From IMG/VR virus record IMGVR_UViG_3300013131_000258, positions 1-22,752 of that record: 22,752 bases of DNA. One strand, written 5' to 3'. The notes under the pieces were generated by a model. That model was not told the origin of the DNA, searched no databases, and saw only the letters and a list, made by a program, of their open reading frames with translations. Both the position numbers and the translations under genes were made by a program. This document shows positions 2,163-22,752 of this stretch, piece after piece. The stretch's first letter is position 1; each line of letters opens with the position of its first letter. The stretch is from a virus.

Positions 2163-3388
2163 TGCCAGTTGGTGATATAGTAGTAAATAAAATGAATATA
2201 GGTTCTCTTAATCTTCTAAGAAGAGATGAATGCCAATATGTTGGTTTTAATATCTATGAAGATTTATTTAATCCATACGGACCTACTGCAGAAATAAAAG
2301 TTAATGATTTTACAGATTGTTTAGGAAGATACAATTTGAATGGCAAGGAAAAAATAGAAATAGATTTTTCTCTTTACGAAGGAAAAGAAAGAGTAAAATT
2401 TGATTTAATGTCTTATGAAAATTCTGATTTAGACGATAGATCTAAAATTAAAAGTGGTGCAATGAAGTCAAAGACATATATAATTAAATGTGTTTCCCCG
2501 GAATATTTGAACGTTCAATCTAAAAGCAATATACAAAAAAGTTATAATTTAGAAATACATAAAATTATAGAAGATTTAGTAAAAAATACAGGATTTTCTT
2601 CTAAAAAACAATTTATTAATGATGATCCTACAAAAGGAAAAATAAGACATATAGCTACTGGACATCCATTAAATATATATCAACAACTTAATAATAGAGC
2701 AGTTTCTTTAAGAAATAAATCGTCAGCTTATGTATTGTATGTATCAGATAATAAGTATATGTACAGAACAATTGAACAATGTTGTAAAGATCCTGAAGTC
2801 TTGACTTTAAGCCAAAGTACAACATTAGGAGCAGGAGCTTCAGAACAACAAAAACAAAATTCTATTACTAGTATTTTAGTAGGATCTTCGTTTTTTAGTC
2901 CTCCAAGATATAAAATAGACACTCAAATGAGAACATATGACACAGTAACAGGAAAAGCTAATTATCCAAGAATTAAACCAAATTCTCAATATACACATTT
3001 AGGAAATCCTGTATATAAAGAAAGTGGTTCAGAAACATCTTTTCCATTATTTTCTCAAGCGGCATATACTCAACATGATAGAGTAAATAATAAAACTTCA
3101 ACAGATGTAGCTTCGGCTAGACAAAATAGATCAGCATATCTAGGTTATTTTGCACAAAATCATGCAGATTTAGTAGTTATTGGAAATCCTAAAATAAAAT
3201 TAGGAAATATTATAAGAATTAATATTCCTAATAAATCAACAGATTCTAATTTATATGAATCACAATTTAGTGGTCCTGTATTAATAACACAAATAAGGCA
3301 TATTATTAATCCTATAGGACAAGTACCTAGGTATCAAATGGTTCTAAGAGTAACAAAAGCAGGTGGGTACGATAGAGGTGGAGAATGA
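2162..3388 (+). CDS. Baseplate hub ring protein (gp27/VgrG-N-like)
   Basis: A 408-residue protein with the organisation of gp27/VgrG hub domains. Seen: an N-terminal beta-rich part (VNDFTDCLGRYNLNGKEKIEI, about 46-66, in two adjoining pieces) of the pattern strand-turn-'GxExI', then KTYIIKCVSPEYLN (about 106-119), a helical IHKIIEDLVKNTGF segment (about 138-151), a helix-plus-strand segment with AYVLYVSDNKYMYRTI (about 193-208), and a long C-terminal beta region ending in ITQIRHIINPIGQVPRYQM. In T4, a gp27 trimer forms the torus that seats gp5 and adapts threefold to sixfold symmetry. The next gene is a gp5-type OB-fold protein overlapping it by ATGA, which supports this role. T4 gp27 is 391 residues. 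Assignment rests on fold pattern and position, not strong sequence identity. Confidence 0.72.
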   Translation: MPVGDIVVNKMNIGSLNLLRRDECQYVGFNIYEDLFNPYGPTAEIKVNDFTDCLGRYNLNGKEKIEIDFSLYEGKERVKFDLMSYENSDLDDRSKIKSGAMKSKTYIIKCVSPEYLNVQSKSNIQKSYNLEIHKIIEDLVKNTGFSSKKQFINDDPTKGKIRHIATGHPLNIYQQLNNRAVSLRNKSSAYVLYVSDNKYMYRTIEQCCKDPEVLTLSQSTTLGAGASEQQKQNSITSILVGSSFFSPPRYKIDTQMRTYDTVTGKANYPRIKPNSQYTHLGNPVYKESGSETSFPLFSQAAYTQHDRVNNKTSTDVASARQNRSAYLGYFAQNHADLVVIGNPKIKLGNIIRINIPNKSTDSNLYESQFSGPVLITQIRHIINPIGQVPRYQMVLRVTKAGGYDRGGE

Positions 3389-3852
3389 TATATTGGGCAG
3401 AAATAAGAAATATAGAAGATGATCCTTCTAAAAGTGGAAGGGTAAAGTTAAGATTTTATCCACAATATGGATTAGATTATAGCGATGAACAAAATATCAA
3501 AGATGACGATTTGCCTTGGGCTATGCCTTTAATGCCAATAACTTCTGCTTCTACAAATAAAGCAGGAGTAATACCTACTGGGTTACAAGTAGGATCTAGA
3601 GTAGCAGTAATGTTTGCTGCAGAAGATACAGAAAAACAATATCCTATTGTATTAGGTTCGTTTTTTAGAGCATATCCTCCAATAGTTAATGAACAACAAT
3701 CAGATTCAAATAAAGATGGATTTGATTCAGTAGATCAAGATCAAAAAGGTGTAGATTTACCTTCTAACGCTCGATCTATAGAAGATAATATTGGTAGAAA
3801 TCCTTTAAATCCAAGAATAACACCTAATGATATTGAAACAGAAAGTGTATAA
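3385..3852 (+). CDS. 5: Free-standing gp5 N-terminal OB-fold protein (hub)
   Basis: A 155-residue protein matching only the first domain of T4 gp5 and VgrG. Seen: YWAEIRNIEDDPSKSGRVKLR (1-21, in two adjoining pieces) with the typical 'V-ND-P-K-GRVKVR' OB-fold pattern, LPWAMPLMPI (about 49-58), VGSRVAVMFAAED (about 75-87) and YPIVLGSFF (about 92-100). In full gp5 this domain is followed by lysozyme and a beta-helix; here the chain ends after a polar, Asn/Pro/Asp-rich tail (about 105-155). The beta-helix is in a separate gene two genes downstream. The start is supported by GGTGGAG just upstream; it overlaps the hub gene by four bases (ATGA). It should bind the hub ring and the spike. Confidence 0.75.
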   Translation: MIYWAEIRNIEDDPSKSGRVKLRFYPQYGLDYSDEQNIKDDDLPWAMPLMPITSASTNKAGVIPTGLQVGSRVAVMFAAEDTEKQYPIVLGSFFRAYPPIVNEQQSDSNKDGFDSVDQDQKGVDLPSNARSIEDNIGRNPLNPRITPNDIETESV

Positions 3853-5051
3853 TGAGTACGAAAAAAGCAACTCCTTCTAATTCAAAATATAATAAAAAGA
3901 AATATATTAAGAATACAACTGGCGAAAAAGCTATAGAAGTTGCACGTAAAAAATATGCAAAACATAGAGATAAGCCAACATTAGCAGCTGCTAATGTATT
4001 ATTATCTTTACCAGAAGCATTGAGAGAAGTTGATCCTAATAATATTTCGCAAGTATTACCTCATATGTATAGAAAATTTATGATGGTAAGAAATTTATTA
4101 AGAAGTTTTAATTCAAAAAATAACAGTGCATCCTCACCAGCTGCTTATACAAAAAATTCTATTACTAATGTTTTTACTGGTGCTCTTTGTATTTTAATAA
4201 AAGAACATTCGTTTGATACTGTTATGTTTAGATTATTTACTGTTTTAGGTAATAATAATTATTACAAACTATCAACCGAATATCAAGAAATAGTATTTGA
4301 ATCTATAATAGAAGTTATAAAAAAAGAAAATGAGTATGGTAAAACTAATATACCTGTATCCGTTATACCAGAAATAGTATATAGTTCTTCTATTCCTCCT
4401 ATATTATTTAATTCGTATCAAGAAGTCCCGGATTATTATGTACAACAATATTATACTAAAGAATTAGATCCTTATCCTGGATATATACATTATATGGATG
4501 ATAATGATATTTCTTGTTATATACGCAGATTATCTATAGATTATCCTTTTGAATCTGCAGAACAAGAAATATATACTCTATCAGAATTTGCTTTAGCTTA
4601 TGAATTAAATAAATATATAAAAAACAATAATCTTACTGTAGAAATATTGTCTGCATTATTAATTTTTTATTGCACAAAAATACAAGATGATTTATTTGAA
4701 AAAACTAATGGAAAAAACAGTAAAAATAATCTTTTATCAATGTTATCACAATTTGCTGGTATTGCTGGTGTTATGGTAGATTTAACAGAAGGCAATCATT
4801 TACCCGAATCAGTATTAAATATTGCTTCTGTTGCTGCAACGATTCAACAGCATAAATTGAATATAGGAAAAATTAAAAGACTAAAATCTATAACAAATTC
4901 TGCGTTTTTACCTTTACAATTGTTAAATAGAGGATCTATATTAAGCTTATTATCTTCAACATTAGGAGTATCTAATATAGTATATACAGCCGCTAAAATT
5001 GAAAATTTAATATCTTCTATAAAGAATGAATTAATCAATGACAAAGTATAA
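3852..5051 (+). CDS. Unrecognised helical protein between OB and spike genes
   Basis: A 399-residue protein I do not recognise. It opens with a basic, Lys/Asn-rich tail (1-40), continues with AAANVLLSLPEALREVD and a run of amphipathic helices, a central Tyr/Pro-rich part (about 170-215, with several Tyr-Tyr pairs), then Gly/Ala/Ser/Leu-rich helical stretches (about 290-390) including FAGIAGVMVDL and LLSSTLGVSNIVYTAAK. The latter are moderately hydrophobic but broken by charges, so I do not call membrane segments. Its place inside a divided gp5 hub, coupled by TAATG before and a 14-base overlap after, suggests a baseplate hub component or hub assembly factor (roles held in T4 by gp26, gp28, gp29 and gp51). 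No lysozyme motif was found. Function is open. Confidence 0.7.
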   Translation: MSTKKATPSNSKYNKKKYIKNTTGEKAIEVARKKYAKHRDKPTLAAANVLLSLPEALREVDPNNISQVLPHMYRKFMMVRNLLRSFNSKNNSASSPAAYTKNSITNVFTGALCILIKEHSFDTVMFRLFTVLGNNNYYKLSTEYQEIVFESIIEVIKKENEYGKTNIPVSVIPEIVYSSSIPPILFNSYQEVPDYYVQQYYTKELDPYPGYIHYMDDNDISCYIRRLSIDYPFESAEQEIYTLSEFALAYELNKYIKNNNLTVEILSALLIFYCTKIQDDLFEKTNGKNSKNNLLSMLSQFAGIAGVMVDLTEGNHLPESVLNIASVAATIQQHKLNIGKIKRLKSITNSAFLPLQLLNRGSILSLLSSTLGVSNIVYTAAKIENLISSIKNELINDKV

Positions 5052-5841
5052 TAAAAAATTAGAAGAAGCACCATATGAGGTAGGAAGATCTAATCCAAAA
5101 TATCCTTGGATTAGAGGAGAATCTGATATATTGGGTGCAACAACAACAATATATGCTGATCCTGATAATTATAAAGAATCTTTTACTGAGAAATTTAATC
5201 ATGATGCTTCATTTCAAATAAATGAAACCGCTGATGAAGATAAAAAGGGATTAACTAATTCGTTAAATCATGAAGTTAGACAATATTCTTCAGGAGGACA
5301 TTCTTTAACTACAGACGGGCATCAAGATAATGCAAGTTTAGAAGGAAAAGGCTCTTTAAGAGAAAATTTTGCTGGTGATAGAGGTTCTTCTGCTAAAGGA
5401 AACATATATTCAGGTGCAGGAGAATCTAATGTTAATGGTTCGGATGCTGGACAATATAACGCTGATAATGGTGATACATACACGACTACTACTGGCAATA
5501 GAATAAGTGAGCATACGGGTAATACTGCTACACATTTTGAAGGCGATTTAACTCAATCTGTTACTGGAAATAAAATATCTATGATAGATGGAGAAATAGG
5601 ATTACATGTTCAGGGTGGGAACATGGATATTCAAGTGGAAACAGGCAGATTTAGAGTAAAATCTGGAGCTAAATTATTAATAGAATCAGTAACAGAGATA
5701 GAAATAAAGGTTGGTTCTTCTATAATAAATATAACATCTAGTGGTATAACAATAAATTCTAGTGGTGATATAGTAACACAAGGTAGTGCAACCAAGGTAC
5801 AAGGTGGTGGTATTGTAGCTCCTCCTACAACGTTTATTTAA
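5038..5841 (+). CDS. 5: Central spike, gp5 C-terminal beta-helix-like protein
   Basis: A 267-residue protein that looks like the needle part of gp5/VgrG. The N-terminal 40 residues (with YPWIRGESDILGATT) resemble the segment that leads into phage spikes. Residues about 75-190 are Gly/Asn/Asp/Ser/Thr-rich short repeats such as GNRISEHTGN and TGNKISMIDGEIG. The C-terminal part has alternating strands (IEIKVGSSIINITSSGITI, about 217-235) typical of the VgrG/gp5 triple-stranded beta-helix, and it ends in a Gly/Pro-rich tip (VQGGGIVAPPTTFI). A trimeric membrane-piercing needle is inferred. There is no lysozyme domain and no PAAR-like tip motif. The gene starts inside the end of the preceding one, with only a weak ribosome binding site, suggesting translational coupling. 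Confidence 0.75.
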   Translation: MTKYNKKLEEAPYEVGRSNPKYPWIRGESDILGATTTIYADPDNYKESFTEKFNHDASFQINETADEDKKGLTNSLNHEVRQYSSGGHSLTTDGHQDNASLEGKGSLRENFAGDRGSSAKGNIYSGAGESNVNGSDAGQYNADNGDTYTTTTGNRISEHTGNTATHFEGDLTQSVTGNKISMIDGEIGLHVQGGNMDIQVETGRFRVKSGAKLLIESVTEIEIKVGSSIINITSSGITINSSGDIVTQGSATKVQGGGIVAPPTTFI

Positions 5842-5855
5842 GAGAAGAAAATTAT

Positions 5856-6179
5856 ATGAAAGAATATTTCAAAAAATTAATGTTAGAATTTATCACTAAC
5901 GATAAAGGAGAGCCGGTATATCCAAAACCAGAAAAACCTTCACAAACAATACATGATATAGCTACTAAACATGGATATTTTACGTCTCCAACTAAAAATG
6001 TAGGTAATTGGGTTATATACACTAGAAAAGATTCTAATATGCATTATGACATACATCATAATATTGATAATGGAAAATGGGGGCATCAATCATATAATAA
6101 TGTATATATGTCTGCCCCGCAATCAGGATCTAAACCAGAAGAATTAGACGGATATTTAGAAAGTATACATAATCCATAA
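5856..6179 (+). CDS. Small unknown protein, paralogue of the one after gp25
   Basis: A 107-residue protein of unknown function. It begins with a short amphipathic segment (MKEYFKKLMLEF), then IHDIATKHGY (about 32-41), an inferred set of strands including WVIYTRKD, a His-rich part (MHYDIHHNIDNGKWGHQ, about 59-75), and a last helix PEELDGYLESI (about 94-104). The pattern IHxIAxxxGY ... H ... GxWxH ... PEELxxYL is shared with the 90-residue protein at 6625-6897, so the two genes are paralogues on either side of gp25. The order helix-strands-helix with a His-containing strand recalls the small HicA-like fold, but I see no secure match. AGAGAAG about 10 bases before the ATG is a plausible ribosome binding site. 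Confidence 0.65.
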   Translation: MKEYFKKLMLEFITNDKGEPVYPKPEKPSQTIHDIATKHGYFTSPTKNVGNWVIYTRKDSNMHYDIHHNIDNGKWGHQSYNNVYMSAPQSGSKPEELDGYLESIHNP

Positions 6180-6625
6180 TGCCAACGAGAGCAGACTCAT
6201 TTACCGCATTAAAGAGAAACCAGGAATTTTTCTCCGATTTCTTAAATAATTTTGATAAAACACCTATTGGGAATCAATTAGGTAGAGTTACTAATATACA
6301 AGCAGTTACTCAATCTCTTAAAAATCTCATTAAAACTAATTTAGGAGAAAGATTATTTGATCCAGTAGTTGGTGGTAATGTATATGCTTCATTATTTGAA
6401 TTAAATACTCCTTTGATAAAAAGTAATTTAGAATTTTACATAGAAAATACTATAAGACTTAATGAACCAAGAGTAAATTTAATTTCTGTTGAGGTATTAA
6501 CTTCTTTAGATTTAACCCAAGGTATATATGTAGAAGAAAATACTTTGTTAATAAAAATAACATTTAATCTAATAAATAATTCAGAAGTACAAACAGTTAA
6601 TTTCGTATTAAAGAGAATCCGTTAA
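6179..6625 (+). CDS. 25: gp25 baseplate wedge subunit
   Basis: A 148-residue member of the gp25/lysozyme-like wedge family (T4 gp25, P2 W, type VI TssE). In T4, gp25 sits at the wedge core with gp6 and gp53 and nucleates the sheath; the family name reflects early ideas, not a proven muramidase activity. Seen: a family-typical N-terminus, IQAVTQSLKNLIKTN (about 40-54), a GERLFDPVVGGNVY segment (about 57-70), and the signature NEPRV (about 95-99) before strands of the wedge core. Length fits (T4 gp25 is 132). The gene is joined by TAATG to a small unknown gene on each side. Confidence 0.9.
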   Translation: MPTRADSFTALKRNQEFFSDFLNNFDKTPIGNQLGRVTNIQAVTQSLKNLIKTNLGERLFDPVVGGNVYASLFELNTPLIKSNLEFYIENTIRLNEPRVNLISVEVLTSLDLTQGIYVEENTLLIKITFNLINNSEVQTVNFVLKRIR

Positions 6626-6897
6626 TGAGTTTAAATTTAATAAAAAGAATAATTAAAGAACAATCTCTTAGTATTCATCATATAGCTAAGCAATATGGTT
6701 ATAGAGATTATGAACTTGATAATGAAGGTAATGTTTTATACACTAATATTAAAACAGGACAAAAAATAATGCATTCTAGGTATGGTGGTTGGAAACACGG
6801 AAATTTAGATTTTAGAATGAATATGTTTAATACTAAAAAACACGGAACTACTCCTGAAGAATTAATAAAGTATCTAGGATCACCAGAGCATGGCTAA
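6625..6897 (+). CDS. Small unknown protein, paralogue of the one before gp25
   Basis: A 90-residue protein of unknown function. It has a short leader (LIKRIIKEQ, 5-13), then SIHHIAKQYGY (about 16-26), LDNEGNVLYTN and a strand with KIMHSRYGGWKHG (about 47-59), and a final helix PEELIKYLGSP (about 77-87). These blocks align in order with the 107-residue protein at 5856-6179. The leader contains I-K-E followed by Gln at 10-13, which fits the (L/I)xE cleavage rule of the T4 prohead protease; that use is speculative. It overlaps gp6 by eight bases. AAGAGA lies just before its ATG. Confidence 0.65.
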   Translation: MSLNLIKRIIKEQSLSIHHIAKQYGYRDYELDNEGNVLYTNIKTGQKIMHSRYGGWKHGNLDFRMNMFNTKKHGTTPEELIKYLGSPEHG

Positions 6898-8689
6898 TAG
6901 TTCGTTAAATTTAACTTCATTAGATTTTGATACATTAAAAGAACAATTTAAAACATTTTTAAAATCACAATCTGTATTTAAAGATTATAATTTTGATGGA
7001 TCTAATATAAATGTATTATTAGATGTAATGTCATACAACACATATTTGAACGCTTTTTATCTTAATATGGTAGCTTCTGAAATGTTTTTAGATTCTGCTC
7101 AAAAATTAGATACAGTTGTATCTCATGCAAAAGAACTAAATTATACTCCACGATCACATAGTTCTGCTTTTGCTAATGTTACAATAACATTATCTGCTGA
7201 TTCTACATTAAGTCCTTTTACTGTACCGAAAAATACTATATTTGTTGGTACGAATTCAAATGGAACATATAATTTTGTAACTAGAGACGAATCTACATAT
7301 ACTACTTCTAATTCAACAATAACAATCAATAATCTTCAAGTATTTGAAGGTAATTATGTTAATAATTCGTTTATAGTTGATTATTCAAACGAAGCTCAAA
7401 GATTTGTATTAACTAATGATAATATTGATTTAGATAGTTTAGTTATAACAGTATATGAAAATAATCAACAAGATTCTGCAGAATATAATAGAGTAGATAC
7501 ATTATTTGGATTAAATTCTCAATCTAATGTATATTTCGTACAGGCTGCACAAAATAATCAATATGAAATATTATTTGGTGACGGATTTTTAGGGAAAAAA
7601 CCACAAAACGAGGCATTAATTGTTGCTGAATATATACTTTGTTCAGGTTCAGATGCCAGTGGTGTATATGAATTATCTATGGGCACAGATTTAGGGCCTA
7701 TAAATGGAGGATTAGTTTCAGTAGATAGTATAATTGTTAATGCCAATTCTTCAGGAGGGTCTAATTCTGAAAACATTGAATCTATACGTTTTTATGCTCC
7801 TAGATATTTCGCTACACAACTTAGAGCTGTTTCTTCAGATGATTATAGTTCTATTATTCTTAGTAAATTCGGTGATGTTATAGAAGATGTTAATGTATAT
7901 GGTGGTGAATTATTAGAACCAAAACAATATGGTATAGTTGTTATTTGTTTAAAACCAGTTTCTGGTTTAATTGCTCCAGACTATTTAAAACATCAAATTT
8001 CTTCTTATATGAACGATTTTATTTCTTTGCCAACTAGGGTAGAGATTACTGATCCGGATTATTTTCATTTAAATATTACATCTACTGTACAATATAATAA
8101 AAATTCAACATCTAAATATGCTTCTGATATAAACAGCATAATTTTACAAGCTATTATGAGTTATAGCGAAGAAAATTTAGAATCTTTTAATGAAGATTTT
8201 AGATATAGCAAATTTATTAGTGCTATAGATAATTCTGATGAATCTATAACATCAAATAATACTGAAGTTAGATTGATTAAGAAATTGTATCCTAAATCAA
8301 ATTATCCTACTTCTTATACTATATCGTTTAATAATGAATCTCATGATAACACACATGGTCATTCAGTTATTGAATCTTCTTATTTCACTTATGTAGCAGA
8401 AGATGGTACAAATTATCAATTATCAAAGATAGAAGATGATGGTGAAGGTATATTATATGTTTACACTTATATTAACAATATTTTAACAGTATTGAATAGT
8501 TCTATTGGAACCATAAATTATGAAACTGGATTTGTTACAATAAACAATTTAAATATTGCTAATTATACAGGAGACAGTTTATCTATATATCTTTATGTTA
8601 AAGAAAAAGATATAATTATCAATAACTCACAAATTTTATTAATAGATGCATATAATGTTAATATTACAGTTACAGAAGAAAGTAACTAA
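6890..8689 (+). CDS. 6: gp6 baseplate wedge subunit (gpJ-like)
   Basis: A 599-residue protein of the T4 gp6/P2 J wedge family. gp6 dimers join the wedges into the inner ring that holds the baseplate together and changes shape on contraction. Seen: LDFDTLKEQFKTFLKSQ near the N-terminus (12-28), the FDGSNINVLLDVMSYNT motif (about 35-51), helix LDSAQKLDTVVSHAKELNY, a beta domain with the family-typical FGDGFLGKKP (about 227-236), and the APRYFATQLRAVSSDDY segment (about 301-317), which is very characteristic of gp6/gpJ. Length is near T4 gp6 (660). The start overlaps the preceding gene by eight bases, with AGGA upstream; the stop overlaps the next gene (TAATG). Confidence 0.9.
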   Translation: MANSSLNLTSLDFDTLKEQFKTFLKSQSVFKDYNFDGSNINVLLDVMSYNTYLNAFYLNMVASEMFLDSAQKLDTVVSHAKELNYTPRSHSSAFANVTITLSADSTLSPFTVPKNTIFVGTNSNGTYNFVTRDESTYTTSNSTITINNLQVFEGNYVNNSFIVDYSNEAQRFVLTNDNIDLDSLVITVYENNQQDSAEYNRVDTLFGLNSQSNVYFVQAAQNNQYEILFGDGFLGKKPQNEALIVAEYILCSGSDASGVYELSMGTDLGPINGGLVSVDSIIVNANSSGGSNSENIESIRFYAPRYFATQLRAVSSDDYSSIILSKFGDVIEDVNVYGGELLEPKQYGIVVICLKPVSGLIAPDYLKHQISSYMNDFISLPTRVEITDPDYFHLNITSTVQYNKNSTSKYASDINSIILQAIMSYSEENLESFNEDFRYSKFISAIDNSDESITSNNTEVRLIKKLYPKSNYPTSYTISFNNESHDNTHGHSVIESSYFTYVAEDGTNYQLSKIEDDGEGILYVYTYINNILTVLNSSIGTINYETGFVTINNLNIANYTGDSLSIYLYVKEKDIIINNSQILLIDAYNVNITVTEESN

Positions 8690-13116: not shown

Positions 13117-16100
13117 ATGGCATTAGATAAAAACCTAAATGTACCTCCATACAATATAGATTATGACGCTAATAATAGATATCATGCTCTATTATTTAGA
13201 CCACATACGGCTGTTCAAGCAAGAGAACTATCAGAAATAGAGTTTATTCTTCAAGATCAAATTAGAAGATTAGGCGAACATATGTTTAAAGACGGCACTG
13301 TTATCGAAGGTGTCGGTATTATATATCACCCTAATACTCATTATATTTCTTTAGAAGATTATTTTAACATAGATGCAAATGCTTTTGTTACAGATTATAA
13401 TTCTTCTTATTTAATCACTAATTCTACAGATTCTAATAATGCTGTAAGAGCTGTAATGAAAATTGGTAAAAATGGTGTTAAAGCTGCATATCCGGAAACT
13501 AACAGAATTTACTTTGATTATATAACAACAGGTACAGATGGTTCTGGAGAAGATGTTAACGTATTTTCACCAGGAGATATTTTATATTTTTACAGTAATA
13601 CACAAAATAAGTTTGGTGATCTTGATGCTAATAATTTAGTAAATAGCATTAATACGTTATCATCAAACGTAGTTTTTAATTCTAATGGATATGCGTATTT
13701 AATAGGATGTACTGATGGTATAGTATACCAAAAGGGATATTTTATAAAAGTACCAAAACATGTAATAACTGTAAGAGATTTTTCTACTAATGTTTCTGGT
13801 TATGTAGTAGGATTTGAAACTACAGAAGAAATAATAGACGAATATGCTGATCCTAATTTATATGATAATGCATTAGGATATTCTAACGAAAATGCTCCAG
13901 GTGCGCATAGATTAAAACTTACTCCAGAATTAGTTGCTAAATCACGCACAGACACATCAAATAATATCAACTTCTTTTCTATTGTAGAATTTGATGGTGA
14001 TAAACCAACAGAACAAAAAGAAAATACAGAATATAATAAAATATTAGACCAATTTGCTGTTAGAACATATGAAGAATCTGGTGATTATGTTACCAAACCT
14101 TTTCAAATTGAAACTAGAGTAAATGAAGCAAATTCACAATCATTCTTTTATGAAATTTCTTCTGGTATAGGATATGTTAGAGGGCATAGAATTGAAAAAA
14201 TTAATTCTACTAGGGTAGAAGCAGATAAAGGTATAACTACAGAATATGCACAAAATCAAATAATTACAGGAAATTATGGTAATTATGTTATATGTAGTGA
14301 ATTTTTGGGTGCTTTTGATTTTGAAACTTTATCTCAAGTAACATTATACGATCAACCACAATATGCTATTACTGATAAAGAAGGCGCAGCATTAGGTAAT
14401 CCTATAGGAAATGCAGTAGGTACAGCTTCTGTTCGTGCTATAGTATTTTATAATGGTACAAAAGGGTTATCTTCATCACAATATCTAGTATATTTGACTG
14501 ATATTAGAATGAATGCGGATAAATCTTTTAATACTGATGTTAAGTCTTTATATGCTTCTCATGCTACATATGGTAAAGCAAAAGCAGATATTGTATTAGA
14601 AAGCGGATTAGCTGTATTAAAATCGTCAGGAAGTAATAAATTAATCTTTAATACTGCACTAACAGCTATAAAAAGATTAACAGATAATACTGGAATTGGC
14701 GACACATTATATGTATATGATCAAATAAAACCTTCTACAATAAATTCTAATGGAGCAGTAACTGTAACATTACGTACTGCTGCTCCTGGTTCTGCAGAAG
14801 AAAAATTAACTTCAACCACAGGTTCTGTATTAATTGGTTCACAATTAAACGATTACAATATTATATTATCAACTAATGCTTATTCTGCCAATTTGACAGG
14901 AAATATAGCATTTTCTAATAGTAGCAATATAACTATAACAGGAACAGGAACACTATTTACTACAGAATTGGTTGCTAATAATCTTGTTAGAATAACTGCT
15001 AATTCTACTCAAACTTATATAAGAAGAGTTACAGGTATTACTAATTCTACATCATTAACTATAGATAGCCCTATAAATGATGCGGCTGGTAATACTTCTA
15101 CTAAAATACAAAGATTTTATATAGACGGAACAGTATTGTCTATTGCTAATGTTACAATAAATTCTAATACGTCTTTTACTTCACAATTAGGTGTAACATT
15201 AGATTCAGGTACACAAAACGTATATTGTTCTTTCCCTGTGTATAGAAATCAAGCAAGTGCTATAAGTAAAGTTATTAACAAAAACAGATATGTAAAAATA
15301 GATTGTTCAAACAATGTGGCTAATACAGTTGGTCCTTGGGATTTAGGTTTAGTAGATGTACATAAAATAAGACATGTATATGTTGGAACAACATATGCCA
15401 ACACTAATTCTGACAGAAGTAATTGGTTTGAATTATATACAGGACAATCAGACGACAAATATTCACATTCTAAATTAGTTATTAAACCTACATATAGATC
15501 ACAAATAACAAGTTCAACAAAAATGTTGATTGAACTTGATCATTTTACTGCTAATACATCATATTCTGTTGGTTTCTTTTCTGTGGAATCTTATCCAATA
15601 GATGATACCAATACTTCTAATACTAATGCTATACAAACTATAGAAATTCCAGTATATAACGGTGTTGAATTAAGAAATGTGATAGATTATAGACCTAGAT
15701 ATAATAATTCTGCGAATAATTCTACTACTGAAGCAGGAGCTACTATTAATCCAGTAGTTAATACTACATTTTCAGTATCTGGTTCTGGACAATATGTAAT
15801 CTCGCCGGACACAAACTTTATAGCAGATTTTGAATATTATTTGCCTAGATATGATTTAATTACATTAGACCCTTATGGTAATTTTAAAGTACAACAAGGA
15901 AATCCTGCTGTAAATCCTGTGTCTCCGTTTTTTGAAAATGATCAAAGTTTAATTGCTGAATGTTATGTTCCTCCGTATCCTACACCAACAGTAAGAGAAC
16001 AAGAAACATATAATACTAATTCTAAAACATTATTAAAAATTAAATCAAACAAACGTTATACAATGAAAGATATAGCTTCGTTGGAAAAACGTATTAAGAA

Positions 16101-17577
16101 AATAGAATACTATACAGTATTAAATTCTTTAGAGCAACAAGCTAAAGATTTAACAATTCCTGATTCTAATGGGTTGGACAGATTTAAGAATGGTATATTT
16201 GCTGATCCATTTAATTCTCACAATTTAGGAAATGTTTCAGATTTTGAATATAAGATTGCAGTAGATCCTACAGAAACTGTAATAAGACCATTTATCGTTA
16301 GAAATGATATAGATATGATGTATTCAAATACATTATCTAGTAATGTTGTAATAACTGGTCCATATGTTACATTAAGCTATACTGATGAATTATATATAAA
16401 TCAAAATATGGCAACTAAATTCCGTAACTGTGCAGAAGCAGTATGGCAATGGAATGGTAAAGTTTCTTTATATCCTTCTTATGATTTTCATAGAGATGAA
16501 GATACAGCACCAAATGTTAATGTTGATATAGATTTAGTTTCTCCATGGGAACAATTTGCTAATTCTCCTTGGGGTTCTCGTTGGGGAGATTGGAGAACTG
16601 TATCTTCAGATGCTATTCGTGATTGGTCAGAAACTTGGACAAATATAACAGAAGGTATTAATGCTGGAGCTAGTGTTCTAACTAATATAGAAACTATAAC
16701 AGCTACAAATACACAAGAAAGAACTTCTCAAGGATTAGTTGTAGATGTTAATTCGCAAACTATTGATTTAGGTTCTTATGTTAAAGATGTAGCATTACAA
16801 CCTTATATGGCTTCTAGATTAGTATCTTTCGTTGCGTATAATATGAAACCTAATACTACATTGCACGCATTTTTTGATGCTGTTAATGTAGATATATATT
16901 GTGCACCTGGTACATATAATGGAAATAATACTCCATATGATTATGCACAATCTATAGAAGATAATGTAGTTTCTAGAACTGGTAATTTTGGTGATGCTTT
17001 AGTATCTGATGCTAATGGGTTTGTTTCTGGAGTATTTTTAATTCCTGCTGAAACTTTTAGAACAGGAGATAGAATATTCCAATTAACTAATGTAGACGAT
17101 TTAGTAACTGGTGCAGACGCAAGATTAACATTAGGGAAAACTACATATACCGCAGATTCTTTATCTGTTACTCGTACTTCTACAACTATTAACGTAAGAC
17201 AACCAGAAATTACTGTTCAAGACAGAACAGAAAGAAGAACTTCTACAACAACATCAGAAAATATTTCACAAGCTTTATTTTGGCCGCAATGGGATGATCC
17301 TATAGCACAATCCTTTACTGTTGTTAATATACCTCAAGAAGGTTCTGGTCTATTTTTAAGTAAAGTAGGTGTGTTTTTTAAATCTAAAGATGAAAATTTA
17401 GGTGTGTCTTTATATATTTGTGAAATGGAAAATAGCACTCCTAATGAAAATATAATAATAGGAAAATCGTATAAAAAAGCTGCTGATATAACTGTTTCTT
17501 CTACAAGCAGCGCAGAAACAGAATTTACGTTGGATTTTCCAGTATATTTGATGGCAATAAAGATTATGCATTTATAG
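13117..17577 (+). CDS. Giant DUF4815-type virion protein, N-terminal part (frameshifted)
   Basis: A 1486-codon frame that is the first two thirds of a giant tail/baseplate protein found next to gp8 in marine T4-like phages. Seen: YDANNRYHALLFRPHTAVQA (14-33) followed by RELSEIEFILQDQIRRLGEH, the DUF4815 opening; YVRGHRIEKI (about 355); a beta module at about 592-668 also present in the gp7-position protein; and the conserved coiled-coil block YTMKDIASLEKRIKKIEYYT (about 980-1000) then GLDRFKNGIFADPF (about 1020-1034). Near 1430 starts a domain (VGVFFKSKDENLGVSLYICE) that continues in the -1 frame from about 17550. In this frame the last residues after VYL (from 17551) are out-of-frame read-through to a stop at 17577. 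AGGTG lies 12 bases before the ATG. It is probably a peripheral baseplate or fibre-like protein; exact role unknown. Confidence 0.8.
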   Translation: MALDKNLNVPPYNIDYDANNRYHALLFRPHTAVQARELSEIEFILQDQIRRLGEHMFKDGTVIEGVGIIYHPNTHYISLEDYFNIDANAFVTDYNSSYLITNSTDSNNAVRAVMKIGKNGVKAAYPETNRIYFDYITTGTDGSGEDVNVFSPGDILYFYSNTQNKFGDLDANNLVNSINTLSSNVVFNSNGYAYLIGCTDGIVYQKGYFIKVPKHVITVRDFSTNVSGYVVGFETTEEIIDEYADPNLYDNALGYSNENAPGAHRLKLTPELVAKSRTDTSNNINFFSIVEFDGDKPTEQKENTEYNKILDQFAVRTYEESGDYVTKPFQIETRVNEANSQSFFYEISSGIGYVRGHRIEKINSTRVEADKGITTEYAQNQIITGNYGNYVICSEFLGAFDFETLSQVTLYDQPQYAITDKEGAALGNPIGNAVGTASVRAIVFYNGTKGLSSSQYLVYLTDIRMNADKSFNTDVKSLYASHATYGKAKADIVLESGLAVLKSSGSNKLIFNTALTAIKRLTDNTGIGDTLYVYDQIKPSTINSNGAVTVTLRTAAPGSAEEKLTSTTGSVLIGSQLNDYNIILSTNAYSANLTGNIAFSNSSNITITGTGTLFTTELVANNLVRITANSTQTYIRRVTGITNSTSLTIDSPINDAAGNTSTKIQRFYIDGTVLSIANVTINSNTSFTSQLGVTLDSGTQNVYCSFPVYRNQASAISKVINKNRYVKIDCSNNVANTVGPWDLGLVDVHKIRHVYVGTTYANTNSDRSNWFELYTGQSDDKYSHSKLVIKPTYRSQITSSTKMLIELDHFTANTSYSVGFFSVESYPIDDTNTSNTNAIQTIEIPVYNGVELRNVIDYRPRYNNSANNSTTEAGATINPVVNTTFSVSGSGQYVISPDTNFIADFEYYLPRYDLITLDPYGNFKVQQGNPAVNPVSPFFENDQSLIAECYVPPYPTPTVREQETYNTNSKTLLKIKSNKRYTMKDIASLEKRIKKIEYYTVLNSLEQQAKDLTIPDSNGLDRFKNGIFADPFNSHNLGNVSDFEYKIAVDPTETVIRPFIVRNDIDMMYSNTLSSNVVITGPYVTLSYTDELYINQNMATKFRNCAEAVWQWNGKVSLYPSYDFHRDEDTAPNVNVDIDLVSPWEQFANSPWGSRWGDWRTVSSDAIRDWSETWTNITEGINAGASVLTNIETITATNTQERTSQGLVVDVNSQTIDLGSYVKDVALQPYMASRLVSFVAYNMKPNTTLHAFFDAVNVDIYCAPGTYNGNNTPYDYAQSIEDNVVSRTGNFGDALVSDANGFVSGVFLIPAETFRTGDRIFQLTNVDDLVTGADARLTLGKTTYTADSLSVTRTSTTINVRQPEITVQDRTERRTSTTTSENISQALFWPQWDDPIAQSFTVVNIPQEGSGLFLSKVGVFFKSKDENLGVSLYICEMENSTPNENIIIGKSYKKAADITVSSTSSAETEFTLDFPVYLMAIKIMHL

Positions 17578-19628
17578 TACAACCTGATGGTAATAGCCCA
17601 GAATATACAATTTGGGTTGGAGAAACAGGTGGGTTCGATGTTTTAACCAATCAACAAGTATATTCTAATCCATACTCAGGAACAGCCTTTATTTCTTCTA
17701 ATAGAAAAACATGGACTCCAATACAAAAAGAAGATCTTAAATTTAAGTTGTATAGAGCTAAATTTAATAGTTCAGGTGGTTATGCAGGATTCACTAACGA
17801 AAATGATGAATTTTTAACTGTGTCTGGATTTACTAAAGCTAATTCTAATATATCTATAGCAGTAGGAGATATTGTATATAGAGCTAATACATCTGCAAAT
17901 ACAGCTAATTTAACAAGTATTGTAAGCAATACATTAATATCTAATTCAACAAATAATCTACCAAAAGGAAGAATACAATATTTTAACGAAGAAACCGGAG
18001 AAGTATGGTTAGATTCTTCAGCAAATGGTGGATTTAGTAATTCAGATATTATAGCAGTTTATAGACCAAATAATGTTACTATAGCTAATTCTACTGTTAT
18101 TAATGCTAATACATTAATAGCCTGGACTACAATTACAACAGTTGATAATAAATCGTATCATATAGTTGTACCTAAATTTGGAATTATGCAACCTTCTGGT
18201 ACTTCTATTAATTACGAATACAAAGGTGTGTCTAATACAAATGTAGCAGATAGTAATTATCAAATTGTTCAGAATAATATGGAATTAGAATATATTGACA
18301 AAGAACGTCATATTATGTCTAAATCTAATGAAGTGGCAAGTTTGAGTTCTGCAAAATCTGGTACATATAAGATATCATTTGCTACGGTAAACGATTATGT
18401 TTCTCCTGTGATAAATCTATCACAAAAAACATCATTGTTTATAGAAAATCAAATAAACAATGATACTCTTAATGAACATACTAGATATGGTAATTCTTCT
18501 ACAAAATATATATCTAAAAAAATAATTTTAGAAGACGATCAAGATGCAGAAGATGTAAAAATGTTATTTTCTGCTTATAGACCATCTGGTACTGATATTA
18601 AAGCATATATTAAAATAAAAAATGCTCAAGATTTTGAAGATTTTAATGATAAAAATTGGACAGAATTAGAATATATAGACGATGGTGATGAAGTATATTC
18701 TTCTTCGTCTAATAAAAAAGATTTTAGAGAATATGAATTAGGATTTTCTATTACTAGAAAAGTTTATTTTGTTGCAAATAATAATTCGTTGCAAGTAGGA
18801 GAAACTATTACACAATCAAGTTCTATAGGAACTGTAGTATTTAGAAGTGGTAATAATGTTACTGTTGATATGGAAAGCGGATTATTATCTTCTGGAGCAG
18901 CAACAGGGTCTTCTACAGGATCTATTAATATAGTATCAATAAACACAAAATCTGCGTTTTCTAATTCAGGAGTAGATATATACGAAGCTCTTCCTGGTGG
19001 TGTTGAAATAGGTTCTAGTAATGTAGTAATTGTTGGAAAAAATCACACATTTAATGCTAATACAGGAATAAATAATGCTGCAGATGTAATTACAATAACT
19101 AATGCAAATACATATTTTAGTGTTGGTGATGCTATTATGTATCACGTATCAACAGGAAATACCGCTGTTTCTGGTTTAACTTCTAATACTAAGTATTATG
19201 TATCGTTTGCAAATACTACAGGATTAGCGTTAGCATCAACAAGAACAGGTGCTAATATTAATATAACTGCTTCTTCTATTTCTGAAACAGGACATACTTT
19301 AATTGGATCGTTCTTTAATGAAACTTTTGATGTTGGAGATAGAATAAGAATACAAGAAGCTAGTGGCACATTTTCTATAAAAACTATTACATCAATATCA
19401 AACAATACATATTTAACTATAGATACAGGAACAGAATTTACTAATACTGCTTCATTGTTTTATGTATTTAAACCTACTACTGCTGATGGAGTTGTAGAAT
19501 ATTATGATTCTACTGGTACTAGATATCAAGGATATAAAGAATTTGCTATTAAATTGGTATTATTATCTTCAAATCCTGTCTTAGTACCTAAAATAGATGA
19601 TGTTAGAGGAATAGCATTACAGGTATAA
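17550..19628 (+). pseudogene. Giant DUF4815-type virion protein, C-terminal part (other side of frameshift)
   Basis: A 692-residue continuation of the preceding gene in the -1 frame. From 17550 it reads DGNKDYAFIVQPDGNSPEY and continues without a stop through YTIWVGETGG, NPYSGTAFISSNRKTW and EDLKFKLYRAKFN. This matches what family members carry directly after 'F-TPVYL'. Read alone, the first usable start would be TTG at 17748, in the middle of this conserved domain and without a ribosome binding site, so independent translation is unlikely. Further on are a VVPKFGIMQPSGT segment, YHVSTGNTAVSGLTSNTKYY with NTTGLALAS (a common module in marine phage fibres), and GTEFTNTASLFYVF. The joined protein would be about 2170 residues. 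It could be a sequencing or assembly error, a real mutation, or recoding. Confidence 0.7.
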
Positions 19629-22108: not shown

Positions 22109-22752
22109 ATGTGGCCATTTCAGCCGTTATTAGAAAGTACTGCTCAATTACAAGGCGATACTTCTTCTAACGGAACTCTTAGTAAATCAATTGGTAATTT
22201 TAATTCTTCTATAACAGGTACTGTATCTGTATCTGCATCTACATCCAAATCAATAGGTACATTTACTGAATCTATTAATGGTACTGTATTAATTTCAGCA
22301 TCTACATCAAAATCAATAGGTACATTTACTGAATCAATAGAAGGTACTATTACTGATCCTGCAGTATCTGGTTCTCTTAATAAATCAATTGGCGAGTTTT
22401 CAGAATCTATTGATGGTGATGTATTAGTTTTAGCATCAACATCCAAATCAATAGGAACGTTTGCTGAAACTATTGATGGTGACGTATTAGTATCTGGTTC
22501 TCTTAATAAATCAATCGGTGAATTTGTTGAATCTATTGATGGTGATGTATCAATATCTGGATCTGTTAATAAATCAATTGGCACATTTACTGAGTCTATA
22601 GATGGTGATGTATCAATTTCAGCATCAACATCCAAATCAATTGGTGAGTTTACCGAATCAATCGATGGTACAATATTAGTATCTGGTTTTGTTAATAAAT
22701 CAATCGGTGAATTTACTGAGTCAATTGATGGTGATGTATTAATATCAGGAAC
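22109..22752 (+). CDS. Tandem-repeat tail protein (partial, runs off the right edge)
   Basis: An open frame starting at ATG 22109, one base after the previous stop, and still open at the window end (214 full codons). A 20-residue head (MWPFQPLLESTAQLQGDTSS) is followed by at least nine copies of a 21-residue unit of consensus S(A/G)S(T/L)(S/N)KSIGxFxESIDGDVxI. The KSIG motif begins at residues 26, 47, 68, 92, 113, 134, 155, 176 and 197; one unit is three residues longer (ITDPAV). Strand-turn repeats with conserved Gly and Ile fit a solenoid or trimeric beta-shaft. Its position after the small tail protein cassette suggests a fibre or adhesin. No homology can be claimed from the repeat alone, and the C-terminal domain is outside the window. 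Confidence 0.75.
   Translation, partial: MWPFQPLLESTAQLQGDTSSNGTLSKSIGNFNSSITGTVSVSASTSKSIGTFTESINGTVLISASTSKSIGTFTESIEGTITDPAVSGSLNKSIGEFSESIDGDVLVLASTSKSIGTFAETIDGDVLVSGSLNKSIGEFVESIDGDVSISGSVNKSIGTFTESIDGDVSISASTSKSIGEFTESIDGTILVSGFVNKSIGEFTESIDGDVLISG
22169..22752 (+). repeat. 63-bp in-frame tandem repeat array
   Basis: Nine and a part copies of a 63-bp unit, in frame within the last gene; the third copy is 72 bp. Two unit types mix: one encoding (S/L)ASTSKSIG (copies 2, 3, 5, 8) and one encoding SG(S/F)(L/V)NKSIG (copies 4, 6, 7, 9). Third-position differences between copies show these are diverged repeats, not an assembly loop, although near-identical blocks such as tctcttaataaatcaat recur. 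Confidence 0.85.

Follow-up and report, generated by a model that had tools for sequence, protein, structure and literature searches.

Among the tail genes of a T4-like phage we encountered two small genes, here termed ORF-A and ORF-B, whose products are, as judged by comparison of their sequences, distantly related and diverged copies of one small protein family, with a similarity beyond that expected by chance. They lie on either side of the gene for the baseplate wedge subunit gp25, and by comparison with related loci ORF-B is inserted into the gp25-gp6 junction, which is almost always closed. The source fragment, a viral record of 22,752 bases, was analysed as a whole and is referred to below as the window. 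We regard the finding as sound but modest, and give about a third of our belief to an accessory role of the pair in the baseplate, about another third to morons directed at the host or at rival phages, and the rest to other readings.

A paralogous pair flanking gp25

The initial annotation described the two proteins as paralogs sharing four motifs, and both statements hold. On reading of the sequences all four motifs are present in each protein and in the same order, namely IHxIAxxxGY (IHDIATKHGY in ORF-A and IHHIAKQYGY in ORF-B), a His-bearing stretch (DIHH and IMH), GxWxH (GKWGH and GGWKH) and PEELxxYL (PEELDGYL and PEELIKYL); ORF-A carries around 15 extra residues at its N-terminus. BLASTP aligns them with 31% identity over 78 residues (E 2e-6 for this single comparison), and in a tblastn search of the 22,752-base fragment each ORF finds the other (E 3e-5 and 2e-5), and a third copy is absent from that fragment at E <= 10. 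The pair has a Smith-Waterman local score of 80; shuffled versions of ORF-B have a mean of 29 (SD 5.5, maximum 61), and none of 5,000 equalled the real pair (Gumbel p 4e-6). The next best score among 1,602 ORFs is 53, from an alignment of ORF-A with the needle protein of locus L018 that is spurious on reading.

Genes in the window are arranged in the order gp4-type head-closure (on the minus strand), tail-tube cap, gp53, gp27-type hub, the OB part of gp5, a 399-residue protein, the gp5 needle, ORF-A, gp25, ORF-B, gp6 and another wedge gene, the T4 names of the head-closure and hub genes being our reading of PHROG labels (Table 1). In T4 itself, gene 25 is located apart from genes 5 and 6. The sequence TAATG forms the overlap both between the stop codon of ORF-A and the start of gp25 and between the stop of gp25 and the start of ORF-B, and the 3' end of ORF-B overlaps the start of gp6 by 8 nt, confirming that the two ORFs directly bracket gp25 with overlapping starts and stops. 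The pair is thus probably co-translated with the wedge genes, although position in a late operon tells when a protein is made and not what it does. Codon usage in the pair resembles that of neighbouring genes (0.728 for ORF-A and 0.681 for ORF-B, compared with 0.649-0.812 in ten other genes), which argues against fresh foreign arrivals; GC3 is slightly above that of the neighbours (0.167 and 0.143, compared with 0.095-0.134 in the same ten).

Table 1. Coordinates of ORF-A, ORF-B and adjoining genes in the window
Feature	Length (aa)	Position	Strand	Basis
Spike needle (gp5 C-terminal part)	267	5038..5841	+	PHROG 694, E 4.2e-5; tail comparison; C-terminus GGGIVAPPTTFI
ORF-A, small alpha+beta protein, orphan in the searches made	107	5856..6179	+	
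gp25-like baseplate wedge subunit	148	6179..6625	+	PHROG 261, E 7.5e-35; Pfam GPW_gp25, E 1.4e-10
ORF-B, paralog of ORF-A	90	6625..6897	+	
gp6-like baseplate wedge subunit	599	6890..8689	+	PHROG 219, E 4.7e-161; Pfam Gp6 domains

Several other features of the window were recorded. The gp5 region (3385-5841) is split into an OB protein of 155 residues, the 399-residue protein, which has no family matches, and the needle; no match to a lysozyme domain is found in any of the three. In several relatives the OB part is fused to a larger protein of about 550-610 residues. Within 13117-19628, a 1,486-residue ORF (DUF4815) runs to 17577, and a second open frame covers 17487-19628; a frameshift may have interrupted a single long gene here, or two genes may overlap. 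The last stretch of the record, 22217-22750, is a tandem array of about 7 copies with a 63-base period, probably part of a tail-fibre-type gene that the contig end truncates.

Junctions beside gp25 in related phages

Relatives were collected from IMG/VR as 49 gp6-bearing and 80 gp25-bearing loci, lists that overlap in contigs, together with five annotated phages. An alignment of gp25 served as the query for the gp25 loci because a scan with a single gp25 sequence had confirmed no relative. The resulting set comprises 134 loci with the window counted. Apart from the window, 128 of them contain both gp25 and gp6, which are separated by no more than 30 nt in 125 of these (77 of 79 when each distinct gp25 is counted once). 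The exceptions are phiM12, with a gap of 870 nt, and two loci sharing the same 65-nt gap. The corresponding gap in the window measures 267 nt and is filled by ORF-B, and it is the near-constant closure of this junction elsewhere that identifies ORF-B as an insertion. Conservation of the pair around gp25, a possibility raised by the initial annotation, is absent in every relative examined; paralogs in both gp25 junctions occur only in the window among these loci.

Other genes are found at the same positions. In phiM12 (locus L006, 5440-6249) a gene annotated as HNH DNAse-like lies between gp25 and gp6, and in Melnitz-3 (locus L170, 3154-3567) an annotated nuclease-like gene precedes gp25; neither has similarity to ORF-A or ORF-B. 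The junctions beside gp25 therefore seem to accept insertions, and even the tightest junction of the T4-like baseplate operon, that between gp25 and gp6, can take a new gene. One 158,790-base record (L053), with a gp6 identity among the highest observed (70% in the best segment), shows the gp25 and gp6 genes split over several reading frames, perhaps as a result of sequencing errors, and possesses a PAAR-type gene.

The slot upstream of gp25 is commonly occupied by a PAAR-type gene, which is found in 49 of the 73 distinct-gp25 relatives with enough upstream sequence (within 60 nt in 47 cases) or, before removal of duplicates, in 82 of 117 loci (80 within 60 nt). "PAAR-type" here takes in PAAR-like proteins, as of the two subtypes used that of L014 is clear in Pfam (E 2.7e-12) and that of L010 falls below Pfam's cut-off (E 0.0064). 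Two PAAR profiles built from relatives find no PAAR protein in the whole window, and neither ORF-A nor ORF-B matches the Pfam PAAR family (PF05488) at E <= 10, the L014 control giving E 2.7e-12.

The window needle terminates in APPTTFI, a Pro-rich type of tail. Among 62 distinct tails, Pro-rich ends (PPTTF, PPTKF, PPLPW and similar) are present in 10 of the 21 from PAAR-less loci, the window's counted and "PAAR-less" being judged at the slot before gp25 only, compared with 0 of the 41 from PAAR-bearing loci; the Fisher p of 3e-6 (1e-5 without the window's own tail) applies to a pattern defined after some tails had been seen and to tails related by descent. Eleven PAAR-less tails have no Pro-rich end. 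The Pro-rich needle tail and the PAAR gene are mutually exclusive in these phages, and a needle with such a tail may represent a self-capped spike. This exclusion bears on how a contractile spike is tipped without PAAR, and may be more useful than the pair of ORFs itself. In the other nine loci with Pro-rich tails gp25 starts 19-39 nt past the needle and the slot is empty, so that ORF-A looks like a second insertion; on these comparisons this is more likely than a substitute tip.

Homolog searches, predicted structures and HicA

Searches for relatives of the pair were uniformly negative. When both proteins were compared with 50,697 phage records by tblastn, only five weak matches were obtained at E <= 10, which we take as chance. 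Viral contigs scanned with the single proteins and with the alignment of the two gave no relative, in tblastn-confirmed scans that could miss members less similar than the pair itself, and neither did genome contigs scanned with ORF-B. A profile built from the two sequences found no match in 47 records or in a further 7, empty answers that carry no weight without a positive control, and among 12,875 ORFs from the 134 loci its best other match has E 1. A degenerate motif scan returned 11 stretches, none a relative on reading, and a second returned at least 118 stretches with no relative among the matches listed (80 loci read). Pfam, PHROGs, NCBIfam, PADLOC and PDB sequences gave nothing convincing for either protein. 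PHROG 37245 matches ORF-B weakly, at E 0.05 (0.0012 in this record alone), and a match of ORF-A to EpmC (E 0.002), below Pfam's cut-off and not common to ORF-B, was set aside. The two proteins thus appear to be orphans without known relatives in the collections and at the sensitivities searched. As no relative was found in other baseplate operons, there is no conservation signal linking the pair to the baseplate.

AlphaFold models, for which the only alignment was that of the two proteins with each other, are of low confidence (mean pLDDT 62 and pTM 0.51 for ORF-A, pLDDT 65 and pTM 0.58 for ORF-B). Both begin with a short predicted helix. The further elements common to the two are helices at the IHxIA and PEEL motifs and four strands, of which the first is short and comes after GY, the next two lie at VLYT/VIYT and the His stretch, and the fourth precedes the PEEL helix. 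Since each protein informs the model of the other, the layout they share is not independent proof of the same fold. The fold lists obtained with VIA-align have 7 entries in common among the best 50 matches for each of these weak, non-independent models. The best match is 7nvr_d in both cases, with Z 5.4 for ORF-B (rmsd 3.2, 75 aligned) and Z 6.8 for the other model (rmsd 2.6, 71 aligned); these are unrelated chains, with Z values in the range the tool calls common. Foldseek gave no match at E <= 0.001 for ORF-B against PDB or for both models against BFVD. The helix-strands-helix layout described in the initial annotation is therefore seen in both low-confidence models, but is too common to name a family.

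That annotation compared the layout to HicA and suggested RNA- or protein-binding accessory factors that had moved into the baseplate operon. HicA toxins (PF07927) have a dsRBD-like fold, and Burkholderia HicA has a G-x-H site with functional Gly22 and His24 (PMC3969222). Pfam HicA gives no row for ORF-A or ORF-B at E <= 10, with E. coli and Moraxella phage HicA controls matching at 3e-7, and hhalign of the pair against six HicA sequences, these two controls among them, returns probabilities of 0.4% and 0.35% with only 9-10 columns aligned. The G-x-H motif is absent from both sequences, and no HicB gene is adjacent, the neighbours being the needle, gp25 and gp6. Net charge is -0.9 for ORF-A and +4.0 for ORF-B, compared with +6.0 for E. 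coli HicA. Three HicA-family structures match the weak ORF-B model, 1whz with Z 3.9 (rmsd 4.4, 57 aligned), 6g26_F with Z 3.7 (3.8, 56) and 4c26 with Z 3.5 (3.6, 56), values below those of many unrelated chains (up to Z 5.4); for the ORF-A model no HicA structure is among the matches listed (best 50). Kinship with HicA is thus not borne out by the Pfam, hhalign, G-x-H or HicB results, and an RNA-binding role has no evidence of its own once that kinship is unsupported. As an account of where the genes lie, the idea of accessory factors that moved into this operon can be retained.

Possible roles and relation to known systems

Our preferred interpretation, held tentatively, is that ORF-A and ORF-B are lineage-specific, co-translated accessory proteins that would bind other baseplate proteins. 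The two are diverged copies of one small alpha+beta protein, inserted flush on both sides of gp25 in a single T4-like lineage, and would be produced late with gp25 and gp6, presumably through translational coupling. Such small proteins might bind baseplate components and aid assembly of the wedge or hub, or ride as minor baseplate parts, with the conserved IHxIA, middle-strand His and GxWxH forming a putative binding or metal site. Paralogy, the overlaps with the starts of gp25 and gp6, the junction closed elsewhere, neighbour-like codon usage and the matching predicted layout are consistent with a baseplate role, and the retention of a coupled reading frame in an otherwise closed gp25-gp6 junction suggests use. 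Against it stand the lack of a relative in other baseplate operons and the low confidence of models (pLDDT 65 and 62) derived from a two-sequence alignment. A more specific proposal, that the pair is a new type of baseplate component in which one domain brackets the gp25-gp6 wedge core, only in a PAAR-less lineage with a self-capped needle, is unlikely on present evidence; if true, the baseplate core of that lineage would have been refitted with parts that T4 does not have. The pair provides a concrete orphan case in which a role in wedge assembly can be tested.

It is also possible, again tentatively, that the two are morons. These would be small genes that came to lie in a late operon with strong expression and whose products target the host or competing phages and play no part in the baseplate. 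The absence of the pair around gp25 in relatives and the unrelated genes taken up at gp25 junctions in phiM12 (HNH DNAse-like) and Melnitz-3 (nuclease-like) agree with this. Against it, two copies of one family flank a single gene, and both have overlapping starts and stops and scant space for separate promoters. T4 internal proteins bear a head-targeting leader that the prohead protease cleaves, and the short N-terminal helices with which both proteins start (MKEYFKKLMLE, MSLNLIKRIIKE) could be leaders of this kind in virion-packaged, injected proteins; this is improbable, as the two leaders differ from each other and none recurs in the small ORFs from two related genomes, where a loose pattern fits 6 ORFs out of 478 in one and 9 out of 434 in the other, mostly unlikely ORFs. 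The head genes lie outside the fragment. We likewise assign a low probability to HicA-like (dsRBD-fold) RNA-binding proteins or RNases, with which the predicted layout, the three structural matches and the basic charge of ORF-B are consistent, in view of the failed profile comparisons despite working positive controls, the missing G-x-H and HicB, the charge of ORF-A and the unrelated chains that outscore HicA structures. It is very unlikely that the genes encode mobile nucleases of homing type in degenerate or minimal form: the annotated HNH-type gene of phiM12 does occupy the same gp25-gp6 junction, but neither ORF matches a nuclease family or resembles the phiM12 and Melnitz-3 genes, the His/Asn spacing of an HNH motif is not conserved between them, and 90-107 residues is short. 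Replacement of the PAAR spike tip by ORF-A is highly improbable; ORF-A does occupy the slot used by PAAR-type genes in relatives, in a window where no PAAR was found, but it has no PAAR motif, the needle tail is of a type seen only in PAAR-less relatives, nine of which leave the slot empty, and its paralog ORF-B lies outside the slot.

In comparison with known systems, the pair is like HicA in its small size, the predicted order of helix, strands and helix, and the presence of one or more His residues in strands. It differs in having no sequence or profile match, G-x-H site or HicB partner, and in possessing an additional helix at the N-terminus and probably a fourth strand, and ORF-A is not basic. 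T4 gp5.4 is identified as the spike tip (PMC7600766), and PAAR tip proteins of this kind are similar in size to the pair and share the needle-gp25 slot with ORF-A; unlike them, the pair has no PAAR motif, accompanies a needle tail of the PAAR-less type and has its second member, ORF-B, elsewhere. The extra genes of phiM12 and Melnitz-3 are named nuclease-like and are not homologous to ORF-A and ORF-B, which match nothing, but they are inserted in the same two gp25 junctions as the pair.
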